Assembly: GCA_937925815.1 (NCBI GenBank) | Contig: CALAMQ010000031.1 | Span: 1-54,654, forward strand | DNA from: an uncultured Granulosicoccaceae bacterium | GTDB taxonomy: Bacteria > Pseudomonadota > Gammaproteobacteria > CALCKW01 | Reading direction: 5' to 3' | Length of the DNA stretch: 54,654 bases | Part shown: piece by piece, positions 9,827 through 36,778 of the stretch | Layout of the letters: each line of letters starts with the position of its first letter | How positions within the stretch are numbered: position 1 is the first letter of the stretch | The notes under the pieces: model-generated | The model's input: only the letters and a program-made list of their open reading frames with translations | The model's database searches: none | Told to the model about the DNA's origin: nothing | Program-made: the position numbers and the translations under genes

Positions 9827-9886
9827 TAGTATTGGGTGAAACTATCGCGTGATGTTACGTTGAGTAACGCCAGCTGAGAGCACTAC

Positions 9887-10096
9887 GTGGACAGTAAATC
9901 GCCCGTCCCCAAACCACCACGCGCCCGCCGCGACTACATGGTGTTGGCCATTTTGCTCGGGCTGTTGCTGTTCAACTCGCCGTTCTACACCTGGTGGGTC
10001 GATGCCACACCGCCGTGGTACGTGCCATACGCGTTTTGGCTTTTGCTCATAGTGGCCATCGCTTTCAACCAGTTCGGTGCCTCTCGCGATGATTAA
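9887..10096 (+). CDS. cbrX: Small two-helix membrane protein, CbrX-like
   Basis: The product is 69 residues from a GTG with a GAGAG-type ribosome site. After a basic Pro-rich N-terminus there are two hydrophobic helices (about 18-35 and 45-62). The tail G-A-S-R-D-D overlaps the start of the sensor-kinase gene by eight bases. In Pseudomonas a comparable small ORF, CbrX, overlaps cbrA and couples its translation; assignment here is by position and shape, not by alignment. It might also be described as a small subunit of SSS-type symporters (DUF3311/DUF4212-like). Membrane location is inferred from hydropathy. Confidence 0.65.
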   Translation: MDSKSPVPKPPRARRDYMVLAILLGLLLFNSPFYTWWVDATPPWYVPYAFWLLLIVAIAFNQFGASRDD

Positions 10097-13031
10097 CGCC
10101 TGGGTGCTTTTTGGCTCTGCGCTGGGTTACCTCGCGTTGTTATTTGTCATCGCCTGGGCGGCTGACAACGGCTGGATTCCACGATGGATCATCCGCCACC
10201 CAATCACCTACACCTTGTCGCTTGGCGTCTATGCCACGTCTTGGAGCTATTACGGCAGTGTGGGCTTCGCACAGAATGACGGCATCGGGTTTCTCACCAT
10301 CTACCTCGGGCTGACCCTCGCGTTTGCAGCCACGCCCATTTTACTGCAGCCCATTCTACGTCTAGTGCGCGAGTACCAATTGTCTTCGCTTGCGGACTTG
10401 CTGGCATTTCGCTACCGCGGGCGTGTGACCGGTGTGGTGGTCACAGGGCTGATGCTGATTGGTTTAATCCCATACCTGTCATTGCAAGTGCGGGCGATCA
10501 CCCAATCAACCGATTTGTTAATCGAAGCCGAGAGTGATTACCTCGCGATTGCTTTTTGCGTCACCTTGGTTTTGTTCACTGTGTTATTTGGCGCGCGTCA
10601 CCTGACACCGCGCGAGCGCCACGCCGGTCTGGTCACGGCCATCGCCTTTGAAAGTGCGATCAAACTCATTGCCCTGATGTCCGTAGGCCTTTTTGCGTGG
10701 TTTGGCGTACTCGGTGGCAGTGATTTCGGTGCGTGGCTCGAGGCAAACCCTGAAGCATTGACCGCATTGTATGAACCGGTTTCACAGGGGTCGTGGACCA
10801 GTCTAATGGTGTTGTCTTTTTGCGCAGCATTTCTGCTGCCTAGGCAATTTCACATGATGTTCACCGAGAACGACAACCCGCGTTCTCTTGAAATTGCGTC
10901 CTTTGCATTCCCTCTCTATCTCCTGCTTTTGAATTTGCCCATCATTCCAATACTCTGGGCTGGCGAGCAACTGGTGCCAGGCACACCGGCTGACATGTAC
11001 GTGCTTGCTATCACGCAACACGCCAACAACGACTGGTTAACTGTGCTCGCCTTTGTCGGTGGCATCTCCGCTGCGAGCGCCATGATCATCGTGACAACAC
11101 TGTCACTGTCGGCAATGTGCATGACGCACTGGTTCCTACCCGCGGGCCTGAGCCGAGCCAATTTGCGTCACGACTTGCACTTGAGCATCTTGTGGGGCCG
11201 GCGCGTACTGATCGCGCTGATCATGCTGCTGACCTATGGCTTTTACCGCGTCATTGAGCTCAACTCGGGTCTGGCGCAGATGGGGTTGATCAGTTTTGTC
11301 GCTGTCGCCCAATTCCTGCCTGGCGTTCTTGCCTTGCTGTTCTGGTCTCGCGCCACGCAAGAGGGCTTTTTGCTCGGGCTGATGGGCGGTGCGATTGTCT
11401 GGTTCAGCCTGCTTATTTTACCGCTGGTGAGCCATTCCGATTTGCTCGACCAACCACTGCTGGTACAGCAACTTTTTGGTGGCGGTGAAGACATCTGGGG
11501 CAATGTGACCTTCTGGAGTTTGACAGTCAACGCCGTGTTTCTTGTGATCGGCTCGATGGTCACCCGACCCACTTTGGACGAGATAGAAGCTGCAGAGAAC
11601 TGTGTGAGTGACATTTCTCGGCCGTTGACCGGCACAGTATCAGCCTTGTCACCTGAACAGTTTGAGCGTCAGCTGATCAATGTTATGGGGCAAAAAGCCG
11701 CCCGCCGCGAAGTTGATACAGCGTTGCACGAGCTGGGTTTTCAGCCAGATGAAGCAAGGCCCGCGCAGCTGCGGCAACTGCGCGAGCGCATCGAGCGAAA
11801 TTTATCGGGACTGCTCGGCCCTGTGCTCGCACGCCTGATAGTCGATGACAGATTGCACTTGAAGCAACGCACACACGAGGCCCTGTCTGACAGCATGCGT
11901 TTTATGGAGGGCCATCTTGAGCAATCGCGAACGCAGCTGCGCGGTGCAATGCGCCAGCTAGACGATCTACGACGCTATCACCGAGACGTGTTGCGTGAGC
12001 TGCCCATTGGCGTGTGCTCACTCGATGGCCCCGGCACCATAGTGATTTGGAATTCAGCCATGGCGCGTATCACCGGTATTGAGCCCGTGCTCGCCGAGGG
12101 CCGAAGCCCAGACCACTTGCCGGCTCCCTGGGACAGTGTGTTGACCACTTTTGTCGCGGGCTCTGACACCCACCGCAATGAACGACTGGCGAACGACACT
12201 GACACATCGCGCAGTATCAACCTCCATAAATCTGCAATCGAAACCAGTGTGAATGCGCCCGAGGCGCGACGCGGTATCGTCATATTGGTGGAGGACCGCA
12301 CCGCGGTAGAAACGCTGGAAGCCGAGCTCGCCCACTCCGAACGACTCGCCTCTATTGGCCGTTTTGCTGCTGGGGTTGCGCATGAAATTGGCAACCCGCT
12401 CACGGGCATTGACAGCATCGCGCAAAACCTCGCGTTTGAGGAGTCTGCCGGCGCGATTGAGCAAGCCGGCCAAGATATCGTGGTTCAGACACGGCGAATT
12501 GGCGCCATCGTCAAATCCTTGCTCGCCTTCTCACGAGGCGAGCCCCTGTCACCGCCAGACAGAGAAGTTTTCAGTTTGCTGTCTTGTATTGAGGAAGCCT
12601 GTGCATTGGTTGCACTCGACGAGCGTGCAAGGGATCTCAGTATCCGCGTCGAGTGCCCACCCGCACTGCAACTGGCGGGCGATCAGCAGAAAATCATGCA
12701 GATGCTTGTCAACCTACTCAGCAATGCCTGCGACGCCTCGGTTCCCCAAGATGAAATTTGTATCGTCGCTGAGCAGCATGGTTCGCGAGCGTTTATTTCA
12801 GTGATCGACAACGGCTGCGGCATAGAGCCCGCACACATCAAACGCCTGTTCGAACCCTTCTTCACAACCAAACACGCGAGCCGTGGCACTGGGCTCGGCC
12901 TTCCGTTGGTGCACGCCATAGTCAAAGAGCACGGCGGCCGCGTTGCCGTACAAAGTCACTGCGACACCGGCACAACTTTTAAAGTGACGCTGCCAATCCA
13001 CTCCCAAACAATACAAGCCAGAACCGTATGA
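10089..13031 (+). CDS. cbrA: CbrA-like SLC5 transporter/sensor histidine kinase fusion
   Basis: The product is about 980 residues from the ATG at 10089. The N-terminal ~500 residues form a sodium:solute symporter (SLC5) domain with about 13 membrane helices. A linker coiled coil and a PAS-like domain (about 640-730, R-E-L-P-I-G-V-C-S-L-D) follow. The kinase H-box has His765 in G-V-A-H-E-I-G-N-P-L, the N-box is L-L-S-N-A-C-D-A-S, and the G-boxes are D-N-G-C-G-I and G-T-G-L-G-L-P. This matches the architecture of CbrA, which senses carbon/nitrogen status and, in some species, transports histidine. It overlaps cbrX and, by four bases (ATGA), the response-regulator gene. CrbS/MxtR share the architecture, but the NtrC-type partner favours CbrA. 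Confidence 0.88.
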   Translation: MINAWVLFGSALGYLALLFVIAWAADNGWIPRWIIRHPITYTLSLGVYATSWSYYGSVGFAQNDGIGFLTIYLGLTLAFAATPILLQPILRLVREYQLSSLADLLAFRYRGRVTGVVVTGLMLIGLIPYLSLQVRAITQSTDLLIEAESDYLAIAFCVTLVLFTVLFGARHLTPRERHAGLVTAIAFESAIKLIALMSVGLFAWFGVLGGSDFGAWLEANPEALTALYEPVSQGSWTSLMVLSFCAAFLLPRQFHMMFTENDNPRSLEIASFAFPLYLLLLNLPIIPILWAGEQLVPGTPADMYVLAITQHANNDWLTVLAFVGGISAASAMIIVTTLSLSAMCMTHWFLPAGLSRANLRHDLHLSILWGRRVLIALIMLLTYGFYRVIELNSGLAQMGLISFVAVAQFLPGVLALLFWSRATQEGFLLGLMGGAIVWFSLLILPLVSHSDLLDQPLLVQQLFGGGEDIWGNVTFWSLTVNAVFLVIGSMVTRPTLDEIEAAENCVSDISRPLTGTVSALSPEQFERQLINVMGQKAARREVDTALHELGFQPDEARPAQLRQLRERIERNLSGLLGPVLARLIVDDRLHLKQRTHEALSDSMRFMEGHLEQSRTQLRGAMRQLDDLRRYHRDVLRELPIGVCSLDGPGTIVIWNSAMARITGIEPVLAEGRSPDHLPAPWDSVLTTFVAGSDTHRNERLANDTDTSRSINLHKSAIETSVNAPEARRGIVILVEDRTAVETLEAELAHSERLASIGRFAAGVAHEIGNPLTGIDSIAQNLAFEESAGAIEQAGQDIVVQTRRIGAIVKSLLAFSRGEPLSPPDREVFSLLSCIEEACALVALDERARDLSIRVECPPALQLAGDQQKIMQMLVNLLSNACDASVPQDEICIVAEQHGSRAFISVIDNGCGIEPAHIKRLFEPFFTTKHASRGTGLGLPLVHAIVKEHGGRVAVQSHCDTGTTFKVTLPIHSQTIQARTV

Positions 13032-14356
13032 GCCGACTCTTGATCATCGATGATGAATCTGTCATCCGCAAAGCCTTGCGGCGTTTTTTTGAACGCTCTG
13101 GCTACGATGTCGACATCTGTGGCTCGGTCGAGGATGCCGCGACTTTACCGCTAGACAGTTTTGACATCATCATCAGTGATTTACGCCTGCCCGGTGAACC
13201 GGGTACCGCCATTTTGAAATTGGTGAACAACGTTCCCGTTATCATCATGACGAGCTATGCCAGCGTGCGCTCTGCTGTCGACGCTATCAGAGAAGGGGCA
13301 ATTGATTACATCAGCAAGCCTTTTGATCACGAAGAGTTGTTGCTTTTGGTCGAGCGCACGCTTGCAAAAGGACGTGAGAAACGCCAGCGCTCGGCCCTCG
13401 AGCACGACATAGAGCGCGACTATCCCAGCACCTCACTGATCGGTGACAGTCCGTCGATGCGCACGGCTGTGAGCCACATGGAGAAAGTGGCCCCAATTGA
13501 CATGCCGGTGCTGATCTCCGGCGAACCTGGAACCGGCAAAGAGCTCTTCGCTCGAGCGATTCACAACCGCAGCAATCGACGAGACGGCCCCTTTGTTGCG
13601 GTCAACTGCGGTACAAGCCCAGATGGCATGATCGAAGCCGAGTTGTTTGGACATGATCACGAGAGCAATGAATCGCAAGCTGAGCCCCGCAAAGGACTGG
13701 CCGAAGCCGCCAATGGCGGCACGCTCTTCCTCTCTGCAGTGGACGAGCTGACCACCGATGCGCAAGCGCGGTTGCTGCACCTGTTGCGCCACAGCGAGGT
13801 CAGGCCAATCGGTGCGAGCTACACCCGGAAAGTCGATGTGCGTGTACTCGCCTCAGCACGCACCGACCTGACAACAGCGGTGACCGAAGAGCGTTTTGAC
13901 AGCGCACTGCTCTACACATTGCGCGTGGTTGAGATCACGCTACCGCCACTGCGCGAGCGCGCTGAGGACATTGATGCGCTCTCGACGCATTTCTTGCAGC
14001 GCTCCGCCGAGCGGCTCAACCGCAGCTTTGAGGGCTTCGATCAAGACGCGCGCACGGCCTTGGCCAACTACCACTGGCCCGGCAACGTGCGCGAGCTCGC
14101 CAATGCGATTGAGCGCGCCGCGATTCTCTGCGATGGGCCGTCGGTGCCCGGCAGTCAACTCGTTCTCCAGCAGCCGCCATCTCAATTACCACCCATTGAG
14201 CTGAGCCTGGATGACTACTTCCGTCACTTCGTCGAGACTCACCAGCGCAAGCTCACCGAAACGGAGCTCGCCGCGCGTTTAGGAATCAGTCGCAAAGCAC
14301 TTTGGGAGCGTCGCCAGCGTATGGGCATACCCCGCCAGCGCGGCAACGCTGTTTAG
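13028..14356 (+). CDS. cbrB: CbrB-like NtrC-family response regulator with a degenerate AAA+ domain
   Basis: This 442-residue protein is co-translated with the kinase. The receiver domain (1-115) is intact, with D8/D9, phospho-acceptor D51 in I-I-S-D-L-R-L-P-G, Thr75 and Lys97. Its M-T-S-Y-A-S-V-R-S-A-V-D segment is very CbrB-like. The C-terminal Fis-type helix-turn-helix (about 395-435, L-G-I-S-R-K-A-L-W-E-R-R-Q-R) also matches CbrB. The AAA+ core keeps Walker A (GEPGTGKE, 165-172) but has no GAFTGA in the loop after E-L-F-G-H. Walker B reads G-G-T-L-F-L-S-A-V-D-E-L where D-E is expected after F-L. The arginine-finger segment reads F-D-S-A-L-L-Y-T-L instead of F-R-E-D-L-Y-Y-R-L. A sigma54-activating ATPase is therefore unlikely. 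Confidence 0.88.
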   Translation: MSRLLIIDDESVIRKALRRFFERSGYDVDICGSVEDAATLPLDSFDIIISDLRLPGEPGTAILKLVNNVPVIIMTSYASVRSAVDAIREGAIDYISKPFDHEELLLLVERTLAKGREKRQRSALEHDIERDYPSTSLIGDSPSMRTAVSHMEKVAPIDMPVLISGEPGTGKELFARAIHNRSNRRDGPFVAVNCGTSPDGMIEAELFGHDHESNESQAEPRKGLAEAANGGTLFLSAVDELTTDAQARLLHLLRHSEVRPIGASYTRKVDVRVLASARTDLTTAVTEERFDSALLYTLRVVEITLPPLRERAEDIDALSTHFLQRSAERLNRSFEGFDQDARTALANYHWPGNVRELANAIERAAILCDGPSVPGSQLVLQQPPSQLPPIELSLDDYFRHFVETHQRKLTETELAARLGISRKALWERRQRMGIPRQRGNAV

Positions 14357-14440: not shown

Positions 14441-14469
14441 ATGACAGAAGTCGCCGGTGCAGGAATAAT
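14441..14469 (+). promoter_or_regulatory. Putative sigma70 promoter of acs
   Basis: ATGACA (14441-14446) and AATAAT (14464-14469) are separated by 17 bases; each matches the sigma70 consensus at five of six positions. Transcription would start near 14476, leaving a ~69-base leader before the acs ATG. I see no GG-N10-GC sigma54 element in this intergenic stretch. Confidence 0.55.
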
Positions 14470-14544: not shown

Positions 14545-16488
14545 ATGTCTGAAGACATGATCTACCCGGTGCCAGCCGACTTCGGCTCTAGCGACACCCT
14601 GACTGCGGCTGACTACGAACGCATGTACCGGGCCTCTGTTGATGACCCCGCCGCGTTCTGGGCCGAGCAATGCGAAAAATTTCTGACCCTGAGCAAGCCC
14701 TGGGACACTGTTCTCGACTGGGACTACCACAAAGCGCACATTCGCTGGTTCGAGGGCGCTGAGCTCAACGTCTCTGAAAACTGCCTCGACCGACACTTGG
14801 CCACACGCGGCGACCAAACAGCCATCATCTGGGAGGGCGACAACCCAGACGACAGCCTGTCGCTGAGCTACCGTGATCTGCACGCGGCGGTGTGCCGCTT
14901 TGCCAATGGCATGAAGTCACTCGGGGTCTCACGCGGCGACCGTGTGTGCATCTATATGCCAATGATCCCCGAAGCCGCTGTGGCGATGCTCGCGTGCACG
15001 CGCATCGGCGCGGTCCACTCCATCGTCTTTGGCGGCTTCTCACCGGACGCGCTCAGAGACCGCATCCTCGACGCCGAGTGCAAGATTGTCATCACAGCCG
15101 ACGAAGGCGTGCGCGGCGGCAAGGCCGTGCCACTGAAGGCCAACGCCGACATTGCCTGCGACGGTGCCGATTGCGTTGATCATGTGGTGGTGGTCAAGCG
15201 CACCGGCGGTGACGTCGCCCACCACGCACCCCGCGATGTCTGGTACCACGAGCTGGTCGCAGACCAGAGCGACGATTGCGCTGCTGAGCGCATGGGCGCA
15301 GAGGACCCGCTGTTCATCCTCTACACCTCCGGTTCCACCGGCAAACCCAAGGGCGTTTTGCACACTACTGCGGGTTACCTGCTGCAAGCCGCCGCGACCC
15401 ACAAATACACCTTTGACTACCGCGACGGCGAGGTGTTTTGGTGCACCGCCGATGTCGGCTGGGTCACCGGTCACAGCTACATTGTCTACGGACCGCTGGC
15501 CAACGGCGCAACCACCTTGATGTTTGAAGGGGTGCCAAACTACCCAACCGTCAGCCGCTTTTGGGACGTCGTCGACAAGCACAATGTCGCGACCTTCTAC
15601 ACCGCACCCACGGCAATACGCGCGCTGATGGCGCACGGCGACGCACCGGTCGCGCAGACCTCACGCAAGAGCCTGCGCCTGCTCGGCACTGTCGGTGAGC
15701 CAATCAACCCCGAGGCCTGGGAGTGGTACCACAAGGTCGTTGGCGACAGCCGCTGCCCGATTGTCGATACGTGGTGGCAAACGGAGACTGGTGGTCACTT
15801 GATCACGCCACTGCCCGGCGCGACCGACCTCAAACCGGGTTCTGCAACGCACCCCTTCTTCGGCGTTCAGCTCGCACTCCTCGACGACCAGGGCAAGGAA
15901 CTGCCCGACACCGGAGATCAATCTGGCGTGCTTGTGGTCAAGCACCCCTGGCCCGGTCAGATGCGCAGCATCTACGGCAACCACGAACGCTTCTTTGAAA
16001 CCTACTTTCAGATGTACCCGGGATATTACTTCTCGGGCGATGGCGCGCGACGTGACGCCGACGGTTACTGGTGGATCACTGGTCGCGTTGATGACGTCAT
16101 CAACGTCTCGGGCCACCGCATGGGCACAGCTGAAATCGAGTCGGCGCTGGTATTACACGAGAGCGTCGCTGAAGCCGCTGTGGTCGGCTACCCGCACGAA
16201 ATCAAAGGACAGGGCATCTACGCTTACGTGACTTTAATGGCGGGGATCGAAGCAACGGACGAACTGCGTTCAGAGCTGGTCAAGCACGTGCGCACCGAGA
16301 TCGGACCGATAGCCACACCGGACGTGCTGCAGTGGGCGCCAGGCTTGCCAAAAACGCGGTCGGGCAAAATCATGCGCCGCATTTTGCGTAAGATTGCCCA
16401 CAATGAAATCGACAGCCTCGGCGACACCTCAACGCTCGCCGATCCAGCAGTGGTCGACGACCTGATCGCCAACCGCACGGTCAGTTAA
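14545..16488 (+). CDS. acs: Acetyl-CoA synthetase (AMP-forming)
   Basis: The product is 647 residues from an ATG preceded by AGGAGA. It activates acetate to acetyl-CoA through an acetyl-AMP intermediate. The ATP-binding P-loop motif [11 protein letters not shown] lies at about 258-268. The W-W-Q-T-E-T-G-G substrate/adenylate motif, the hinge region and the C-terminal K-T-R-S-G-K608-I-M-R-R follow. Lys608 is the residue that protein acetylation inactivates in homologues. The length is that of E. coli Acs (652). It follows cbrB by 188 bases with its own apparent promoter and is convergent with ppsA, consistent with a carbon-flux locus. Confidence 0.97.
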
Positions 16489-35033: not shown

Positions 35034-35365
35034 AGTATCAACCGGTGTGGCTCCGGCGAATTGTGCCACAGCCGGTGCACCGTGATTTCTGCTGCTGCTA
35101 ATCCTCCGACACATCTGGGCCCCAACTGACATGAAATTGTGACAGCGCCCACACACTTGCGTTAGCAGACTACCGATATACAGCCTGCAACCGTAGTATC
35201 CAAAATCACATGCTCGCTGAGTAGTCGAGAACCGATTCGGCTGCCGCCTGCGTGAGAGTGGGATTTCGTGCACCGCCAAGGCGGATTCATGACCAGCTTG
35301 AAACGGTGGGCGCAACAGCCTTAATCAGCACCCGCGCCCTGACGACATATTTTGAGATACAGCGC
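35034..35365. other. Divergent intergenic region, thioesterase operon / VpsR-like gene
   Basis: These 332 bases between two divergent starts hold no gene I can support. Part may encode an N-terminal extension of the thioesterase, whose frame is open to 35315. It presumably carries both promoters, but I see no convincing -35/-10 pair, operator palindrome or terminator. Confidence 0.5.
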
Positions 35366-36778
35366 ATGACTTCAGATTCCACAACCACGCCAGCCGACGA
35401 GCAATCCCCAATTGCTGTAAGTGCTGAGAAGCCGCGCCGCGTATTCTTCTTGTCATCGGGGTCGGTTGACGAGTCAGCCATCACCAAATTGCGAGAGAGC
35501 GATTGGGAAGTCGAAGTTTGCGAGACAGCAGCACACGCTCAAGCGGTGCTGGAACAGCGCGAATTTCACGTTGCAGTCGCATCCATTGACGGCTTTTCAT
35601 CTGAACAAAACAGTGCTTTGCAAACCCTGTTTGCCAAACACGCACTCTACTGGATCGCCATTGTGCCGCCGGTGCTGCACGGCAACCCACAGTTTGCTGA
35701 GACCATTGGCCAGCACTTTCACGATTTCCACACACACCCTGTCAATGTTGACGCGCTTGCGGGCACCGTGGGCCACGCATTCGGCATGGCGATGTTGCAG
35801 CCGAGCTCGCGTGCAGCGCAGTTAATTACAAATTCAGGGGTTCATCTGGTCGGTGAGTGCCTGGCGATGAATAGCGTCATGCAGACACTGCAACGCGCTG
35901 CACGCGTGAACGCACCAACGCTAATTTTGGGCGAGAGTGGCACGGGTAAATCTCTGTCAGCGCAAGCGATCCACGCGCTGTCAGCCCAATCGGAAAACGA
36001 ATTCCTCGAACTCGACTGTTCGCTGCTCCCAGCAGACAGTTTCGAAGTTGAGATATTCGGTGAAGAGCGCATCACGGCTGATGGCGTTCGCCAAGTGACG
36101 CGAGTTGGTCTGCTCGAAGCGGCACACGAGTCCACGCTACACCTTGCCAACATCACCAGCCTCAACCACGACGCGCAAACTCGTATCCTGCGATTTCTTG
36201 AAACCGGCAGTTTCTCGCGTGTCAATTCCAGCGCCCGACTTGACTGCGCACCGCGCTTGGTCGTCTCGACCCACGACGACCTCGAAGCACAAGTTGAGGC
36301 AGGCCAGTTTCGCGAAGACCTCTACTACCGTATGCGCGTACTGTGTGTAAACCTGCCGCCTTTGCGCGAACGCAATGGCGATTTAGAACTGCTCGCTGAG
36401 TACTTCTTCACGTACTTCACCAAAGACCGCCGCAGCCGCGTTAAAGGCATCTCACACGCCGCAATGGCGGCAATGCACCGCTACGCGTGGCCAGGCAACG
36501 TGCGCGAACTGCGCAACCGCATTCGTCAAGCGATGATCCTGTCCAAGGCCAACTTGCTCCAGCCAGCCGATCTCGACCTCGAAGACGACGGTGACAACGG
36601 CATCATCAGCCTCGAGCAAGCCCGCATCAAAGCAGAGGGTGACTACATCCGCGTGGCGCTGCACCGCAATTACCACAACGTCACAGAGACTGCCCAGCAA
36701 CTGGGGGTGTCCCGCGTGACGCTGTATCGCTTGATGAAGAAGTACCACATCGACATCGGCACTGAGCGTGGCCGTTGA
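35366..36778 (+). CDS. VpsR-like AAA+ transcriptional regulator lacking GAFTGA
   Basis: The product is 470 residues from the ATG at 35366. A degenerate receiver-like N-terminal domain (about 25-140) lacks a clear acidic pocket. The AAA+ module keeps Walker A (G-E-S-G-T-G-K-S) and the arginine finger (F-R-E-D-L-Y-Y-R). It has no GAFTGA after E-I-F-G-E, and its Walker B position reads L-H-L-A-N-I where D-E is usual. The C-terminal Fis-type helix-turn-helix is L-G-V-S-R-V-T-L-Y-R-L. This layout is that of VpsR of Vibrio cholerae, a c-di-GMP-binding regulator of biofilm genes that works without sigma54. Regulon unknown; the divergent thioesterase operon is an obvious candidate. Confidence 0.82.
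   Translation: MTSDSTTTPADEQSPIAVSAEKPRRVFFLSSGSVDESAITKLRESDWEVEVCETAAHAQAVLEQREFHVAVASIDGFSSEQNSALQTLFAKHALYWIAIVPPVLHGNPQFAETIGQHFHDFHTHPVNVDALAGTVGHAFGMAMLQPSSRAAQLITNSGVHLVGECLAMNSVMQTLQRAARVNAPTLILGESGTGKSLSAQAIHALSAQSENEFLELDCSLLPADSFEVEIFGEERITADGVRQVTRVGLLEAAHESTLHLANITSLNHDAQTRILRFLETGSFSRVNSSARLDCAPRLVVSTHDDLEAQVEAGQFREDLYYRMRVLCVNLPPLRERNGDLELLAEYFFTYFTKDRRSRVKGISHAAMAAMHRYAWPGNVRELRNRIRQAMILSKANLLQPADLDLEDDGDNGIISLEQARIKAEGDYIRVALHRNYHNVTETAQQLGVSRVTLYRLMKKYHIDIGTERGR

Follow-up and report, generated by a model that had tools for sequence, protein, structure and literature searches.

The CbrB protein encoded in the window, the whole 54,654-nucleotide stretch of DNA analysed here from an uncultured Granulosicoccaceae bacterium, is probably a true CbrB that has lost the ability to remodel sigma54 with its AAA+ domain and would act as a phosphorylation-gated regulator of sigma70 promoters. 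All of the evidence is computational. No description of a CbrB without GAFTGA was found in the literature searched, and the value of the finding is raised by the repeated loss of the motif and by a matching change of promoter class. To our knowledge, the conversion of a sigma54 activator into a sigma70 regulator is poorly understood, and the familiar examples, the NtrC proteins of Rhodobacter and Caulobacter and VpsR, are mostly end points. Here a single orthologous group contains canonical, point-variant, loop-deleted, Walker B D-Q and fully dismantled stages. Since operators and promoters can be read at each stage, the order of events becomes testable.

The cbr locus

The window cbrB immediately follows the gene of an SLC5-type histidine kinase, within a gluQ-cbrA-cbrB neighbourhood.

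9887-10096, forward strand: cbrX-like small membrane ORF, GTG start, 69 aa; its 3' end overlaps the cbrA start
10089-13031, forward strand: cbrA, with an SLC5-type membrane part, a PAS-like region, HisKA and HATPase; kinase boxes present
13028-14356, forward strand: cbrB, 442 aa, with a receiver, a degenerate AAA+ domain and a Fis-type HTH
14545-16488, forward strand: acs, acetyl-CoA synthetase (TIGR02188, 1017 bits)

The order dksA-gluQ-cbrA-cbrB is common to relatives across the class, which identifies the window protein as a CbrB orthologue. The homology to the CbrB group extends over the full length, including the HTH sequence ETELAxxLGISRKxLWERRQRxGIPR, and the protein was placed inside the orthologue tree. 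ATG 10089 is a likelier start for cbrA than GTG 10077, and cbrA shares 4 bp (ATGA) with cbrB.

The cbrX gene of P. putida has been described (PMC6591292), and small membrane ORFs of the cbrX type that overlap cbrA are widespread in Gammaproteobacteria (9887-10096 here, with equivalents in loci L048-L079). A review called CbrAB unique to Pseudomonadaceae (PMC8871633), and cbrX too has been described as restricted to that family; the spread of cbrX-cbrA-cbrB across Gammaproteobacteria is contrary to that view.

Lesions in the AAA+ domain

The lesions were placed by translation and by alignment with 87 orthologues.

13520-13543, forward strand: Walker A GEPGTGKE, intact (residues 165-172)
13655-13687, forward strand: L1 slot, DHESNESQAEP where GAFTGA is expected (residues 210-220)
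13724-13750, forward strand: Walker B LFLSAVDEL, D to S and E to A (residues 233-241)
13850-13867, forward strand: sensor I segment, ASARTD where AATHRD is expected (placed by alignment)
13895-13921, forward strand: arginine-finger segment FDSALLYTL, both arginines absent (residues 290-298)

A sequence-only reading of this DNA had held that GAFTGA, the Walker B acids and both finger arginines were gone while Walker A and the receiver survived, and the alignment bore this out at every point. Judged by what defines a functional bEBP, the protein lacks GAFTGA in loop L1, the Walker B pair (the conserved D236-E237 had become S-A) and the arginine fingers (the consensus of the segment is FRxDLYFRL). 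The wider sensor I stretch, residues 274-281, was LASARTDL vs xAATHRDL. No GAFTGA and no conserved catalytic acids were present elsewhere in the protein. The acids at 239-240 were considered as Walker B substitutes and rejected, because they vary (DE, DA, CE) among three congeners.

The remainder of the protein was preserved. The receiver residues D8/D9, D51, T75 and K97 were all present, as was the GNVREL segment of sensor II, and the absence of GAFTGA together with an intact receiver and a retained Walker A are the traits of GAFTGA-less sigma70 regulators. The AAA+ region still scored as Pfam Sigma54_activat (PF00158, 168.9 bits), and the AlphaFold model retained the AAA+ fold with good confidence, falling below 50 only at residues 214-217 in the L1 slot, in a linker and at the C-terminus. 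The domain may be a scaffold that could bind ATP via Walker A but should not hydrolyse it.

Congeners, selection and rpoN

Three other genomes of the same genus (G001, G003 and G002) were compared with the window's own genome, G000. The CbrB of G001, 79% identical to that of the window, had the same lesions with a different L1 sequence. The G003 protein, 58% identical, had milder losses: a GAVVGS relic, a lost Walker B (LYLSHLCEL) and a finger segment in which one arginine remains (FREDLYLGL). A sequencing error or frameshift as the origin of the lesions was rejected, because the frames were open in three genomes, with no frameshift or internal stop. In G002, neither a cbrB orthologue nor an rpoN match was seen; that genome is only 79% complete.

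Between G000 and G001 the overall dN/dS of cbrB was 0.09, a rough value because dS was near saturation, and cbrA was about as constrained. The contrast in identity between the CbrB domains is independent of these ratios: 90% in the receiver and 96% in the HTH, but 73% in the AAA+ domain and 24% in the L1 slot. NtrC in the same two genomes showed the opposite, the AAA+ domain being its best conserved part (88%) and the HTH reaching 74%. Strong purifying selection acts on the receiver and DNA-binding domain of CbrB, and constraint on the AAA+ domain is relaxed.

The window genome has a full-length rpoN and also retains three canonical activators, and rpoN was found in all of the GAFTGA-lost genomes checked (G000, G001, G003, G143 and G350). 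One canonical CbrB (G089, locus L052) occurs in a genome that is 93% complete and yet gave no rpoN match, reflecting either an incomplete assembly or a real mismatch.

Of the eight strong homologues of AAA+ activators in the window genome, at least four lack GAFTGA and three keep it. Two of the sigma54-family proteins without it are L005 and L007. Another regulator of the family, also without GAFTGA, is encoded in the window at 35252-36778, with a VpsR domain (PF20161) and a Fis-type HTH; its Walker B (LHLANITSL) has no acids, and its arginine fingers are kept (FREDLYYRM).

Recurrence of the loss

A tree was built from 88 CbrB orthologues from the class and from family f141, to which the name Alteromonadaceae probably applies, with the trait columns excluded from the alignment. 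The rows comprised 48 canonical proteins, 14 with point variants such as GAFTSA and GAFIGA, and 26 in which GAFTGA was lost. Outright loss required two changes, one in the window's genus and one in f141, a recurrence that, like the operators and promoters described below, goes beyond what the sequence-only reading saw. The lesions of the window's genus define a clade (SH-aLRT 100). The f141 loss is a clade of 23 rows, in which the L1 loop was deleted and both arginines were retained.

Outside the window's genus, Walker B was D-E in 80 of 85 orthologues and D-Q in the other five, and both arginines were kept in 85/85. The D-Q form is naturally conserved in the CbrB of five f141 genomes (L094, L099, L105, L107 and L108); D-Q in Walker B is a laboratory substitution that blocks ATP hydrolysis in AAA+ proteins.

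The CbrB operator

P. putida CbrB binds TGTTAC/GTAACA subsites (PMC6296734). Half-sites of this type, GTTAC/GTAAC, were enriched 3' of cbrB in canonical genomes (85 vs 20 expected), and two operators were recognised in the window.

9854-9868, no strand assigned: CbrB operator GTTAC-N5-GTAAC upstream of cbrX-cbrA-cbrB, the sole perfect copy in the genome
14351-14365, no strand assigned: degenerate CbrB operator GTTTAGTTTGGTAAC with 2 mismatches, lying across the stop codon of cbrB and upstream of acs; G001 has the identical sequence

With at most one mismatch, GTTAC-N5-GTAAC was found approximately 200-300 bp upstream of cbrA, just before the cbrX-like ORF, in 22 gammaproteobacterial genomes. 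Pseudomonas-like loci are among those that have no operator at this position, which agrees with the CbrB-independent expression of cbrA in P. putida (PMC6591292). In G000, G001 and G003 the perfect operator upstream of cbrA was the single match in each genome. Its retention as one copy in three genomes suggests that, despite the loss of the engine, selection probably still acts on DNA binding by CbrB. The acs operator was not present in the same form in G003.

An extended -10 (TGnTAAGCT-like) near the cbrX start codon often comes after the operator in canonical genomes (L051-L074). This arrangement suggests sigma70 autoregulation even where CbrB is a normal sigma54 activator, and cbrX there would perhaps have a very short leader.

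Promoters beside the operators

Within 700 bp 3' of cbrB, a sigma54 -24/-12 site was found in 27 of the 48 canonical rows (3 expected), in 2 of the 14 point-variant rows and in none of the 26 GAFTGA-lost rows, although the association between GAFTGA and a sigma54 promoter was not significant after correction for the tree, there being few independent lineages or pairs. The nearest operator lay 66-69, 77-81 or 90-91 bp before the sigma54 site in 22 canonical rows, spacings that step by about one helical turn. The genes behind the canonical operators encode SSS transporters, cyclic-nucleotide-binding/DUF294-like proteins, DUF485-actP, acs and an ABC transporter. Two-mismatch sigma54 matches in L151, L153 and L155 were rejected, since each coincides in part with the operator and none is at the distance of a promoter. 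Only L064 and L065, the two Pseudomonas-like loci, had CrcZ-like CA-motif arrays 3' of cbrB; an output of the CrcZ type is therefore no general feature.

In the GAFTGA-less f141 clade, an operator that is perfect or has one mismatch precedes DUF485-actP, the same target as in canonical relatives. TTGACA/T lay exactly 66 bp from the operator in 14/14 genomes of one f141 genus, while in five genomes of a second genus the TTGACA stood at 98-99 bp and a GACAAT-like -10 was conserved. In f93 and f155, the families nearest to the window's genus in the tree, a sigma54 -24 element stood 79-91 bp from the operator.

The corresponding element of the window lies upstream of acs.

14441-14469, forward strand: sigma70-type promoter ATGACA-17-AATAAT; its distance to the operator start, 90 bp, is shared by G001

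Its score of 10-of-12 was matched by about 1% of shuffles, and in 4000 shuffles never at one offset in both G000 and G001. In L071, a canonical locus, acs has a sigma70-like promoter with no operator beside it; the acs promoter of the window could therefore predate the change in CbrB. Control of acs by CbrB is uncertain because the operator has two mismatches, G003 differs and the L071 promoter has no operator; on the sequence evidence, the link of CbrB to acs is weaker than that to the cbrXA operator. A search at the cbrX operator of the window gave no clear sigma70 promoter, and no sigma54 sites were found near the window's CbrB operators.

We give about even chances to the proposal that CbrB exchanged sigma54 for sigma70 control on two or more occasions and that the operator-adjacent promoter was each time rebuilt from -24/-12 to -35/-10 at comparable spacing, with the operator and the target function (acetate uptake or activation) kept, a coordinated cis-trans conversion.

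Proposed mechanism and alternatives

We infer that CbrA phosphorylates the intact receiver of CbrB. Phospho-CbrB would then bind the old operator, GTTAC-N5-GTAAC, through its unchanged HTH, a step proposed because both HTH and operator are conserved. The DNA-bound protein would regulate the housekeeping polymerase without ATP hydrolysis, like Rhodobacter capsulatus NtrC, and would control sigma70-type promoters, those of its own cbrX-cbrA-cbrB operon, where the evidence is strongest, and probably of acs. The sequence-only reading had proposed such a phosphorylation-gated DNA-binding switch; selection, the kept operators and the sigma70-like promoters beside them lend it support.

CbrB might instead be only an autorepressor that binds the cbrX operator and blocks the core promoter, with no activating role. 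The one perfect operator per genome is indeed at cbrX in G000, G001 and G003, and the canonical operator would overlap the -35 of the extended -10 promoter (TG at +21/22 from the operator start, G in 16/22). Autoregulation alone, however, would be a system without output. G000 and G001 both retain the acs site at its spacing of 90 bp, and f141 has distal operators with sigma70-type promoters at fixed spacing; we consider a pure autorepressor unlikely. It is much less probable that the AAA+ losses mark the onset of pseudogenisation in a disused system. The relaxed AAA+ domain, the intermediate appearance of G003 and the missing orthologue in G002 would fit decay, but the receiver and HTH are very strongly constrained and cbrA equally so, there are no stops in three species, the operator is perfectly kept and the G002 assembly is only 79% complete.

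CbrB might also enter mixed rings with NtrC or another intact sigma54 activator, where it would be inactive or antagonistic; the retained AAA+ fold and Walker A would suit such a role. The surfaces used in rings, the arginine finger and L1, are nevertheless those that diverged, and CbrB's own operator and HTH are specifically conserved, so that this role is highly improbable. The presence of rpoN would permit continued activation of sigma54 promoters by some unknown route, but the loss of GAFTGA, Walker B and the arginine fingers removes both the contact and the energy source, and the operators have no sigma54 site nearby; the chance of this is negligible. A gated regulator of sigma70 promoters is the reading that we prefer, and it can be compared with known systems.

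Comparison with known systems

Pseudomonas CbrB, of the CbrAB-CrcZ system, shares with the window the cbrX-cbrA-cbrB order, the receiver, the HTH sequence and the TGTTAC/GTAACA subsites (PMC6296734). It activates sigma54 promoters such as crcZ, whereas the window CbrB has lost the sigma54 machinery, and the window locus differs in having acs after cbrB and an operator upstream of cbrX.

R. capsulatus NtrC is, by analogy, the nearest working model. It has no GAFTGA, requires phosphorylation and ATP binding but not hydrolysis, and works with sigma70 polymerase (PMC10274813). Both proteins are GAFTGA-less response regulators, the sigma70 action of the window protein being predicted from sequence. 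The Rhodobacter protein belongs to another orthologous group with another stimulus, and its loop was deleted, whereas that of the window was overwritten and Walker B and the arginine fingers were lost as well. In Caulobacter NtrC, GAFTGA was deleted, sigma70 promoters are regulated and the phosphorylation site matters (PMC10274813). That protein was reported to need both ATP binding and hydrolysis; the residues for hydrolysis are absent from the window CbrB.

VpsR of Vibrio cholerae responds to c-di-GMP. It is also GAFTGA-less and acts on sigma70 promoters without ATP, phosphorylation not being required (PMC10274813); unlike VpsR, the window CbrB has an intact receiver and a cognate kinase.

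The CbrB of the f141 clade is orthologous to that of the window, and in both GAFTGA was lost and the operator is followed by a sigma70-type promoter. The f141 proteins differ in that the loop was deleted, Walker B is D-E (D-Q in five rows), both arginine fingers were kept and the target is DUF485-actP.
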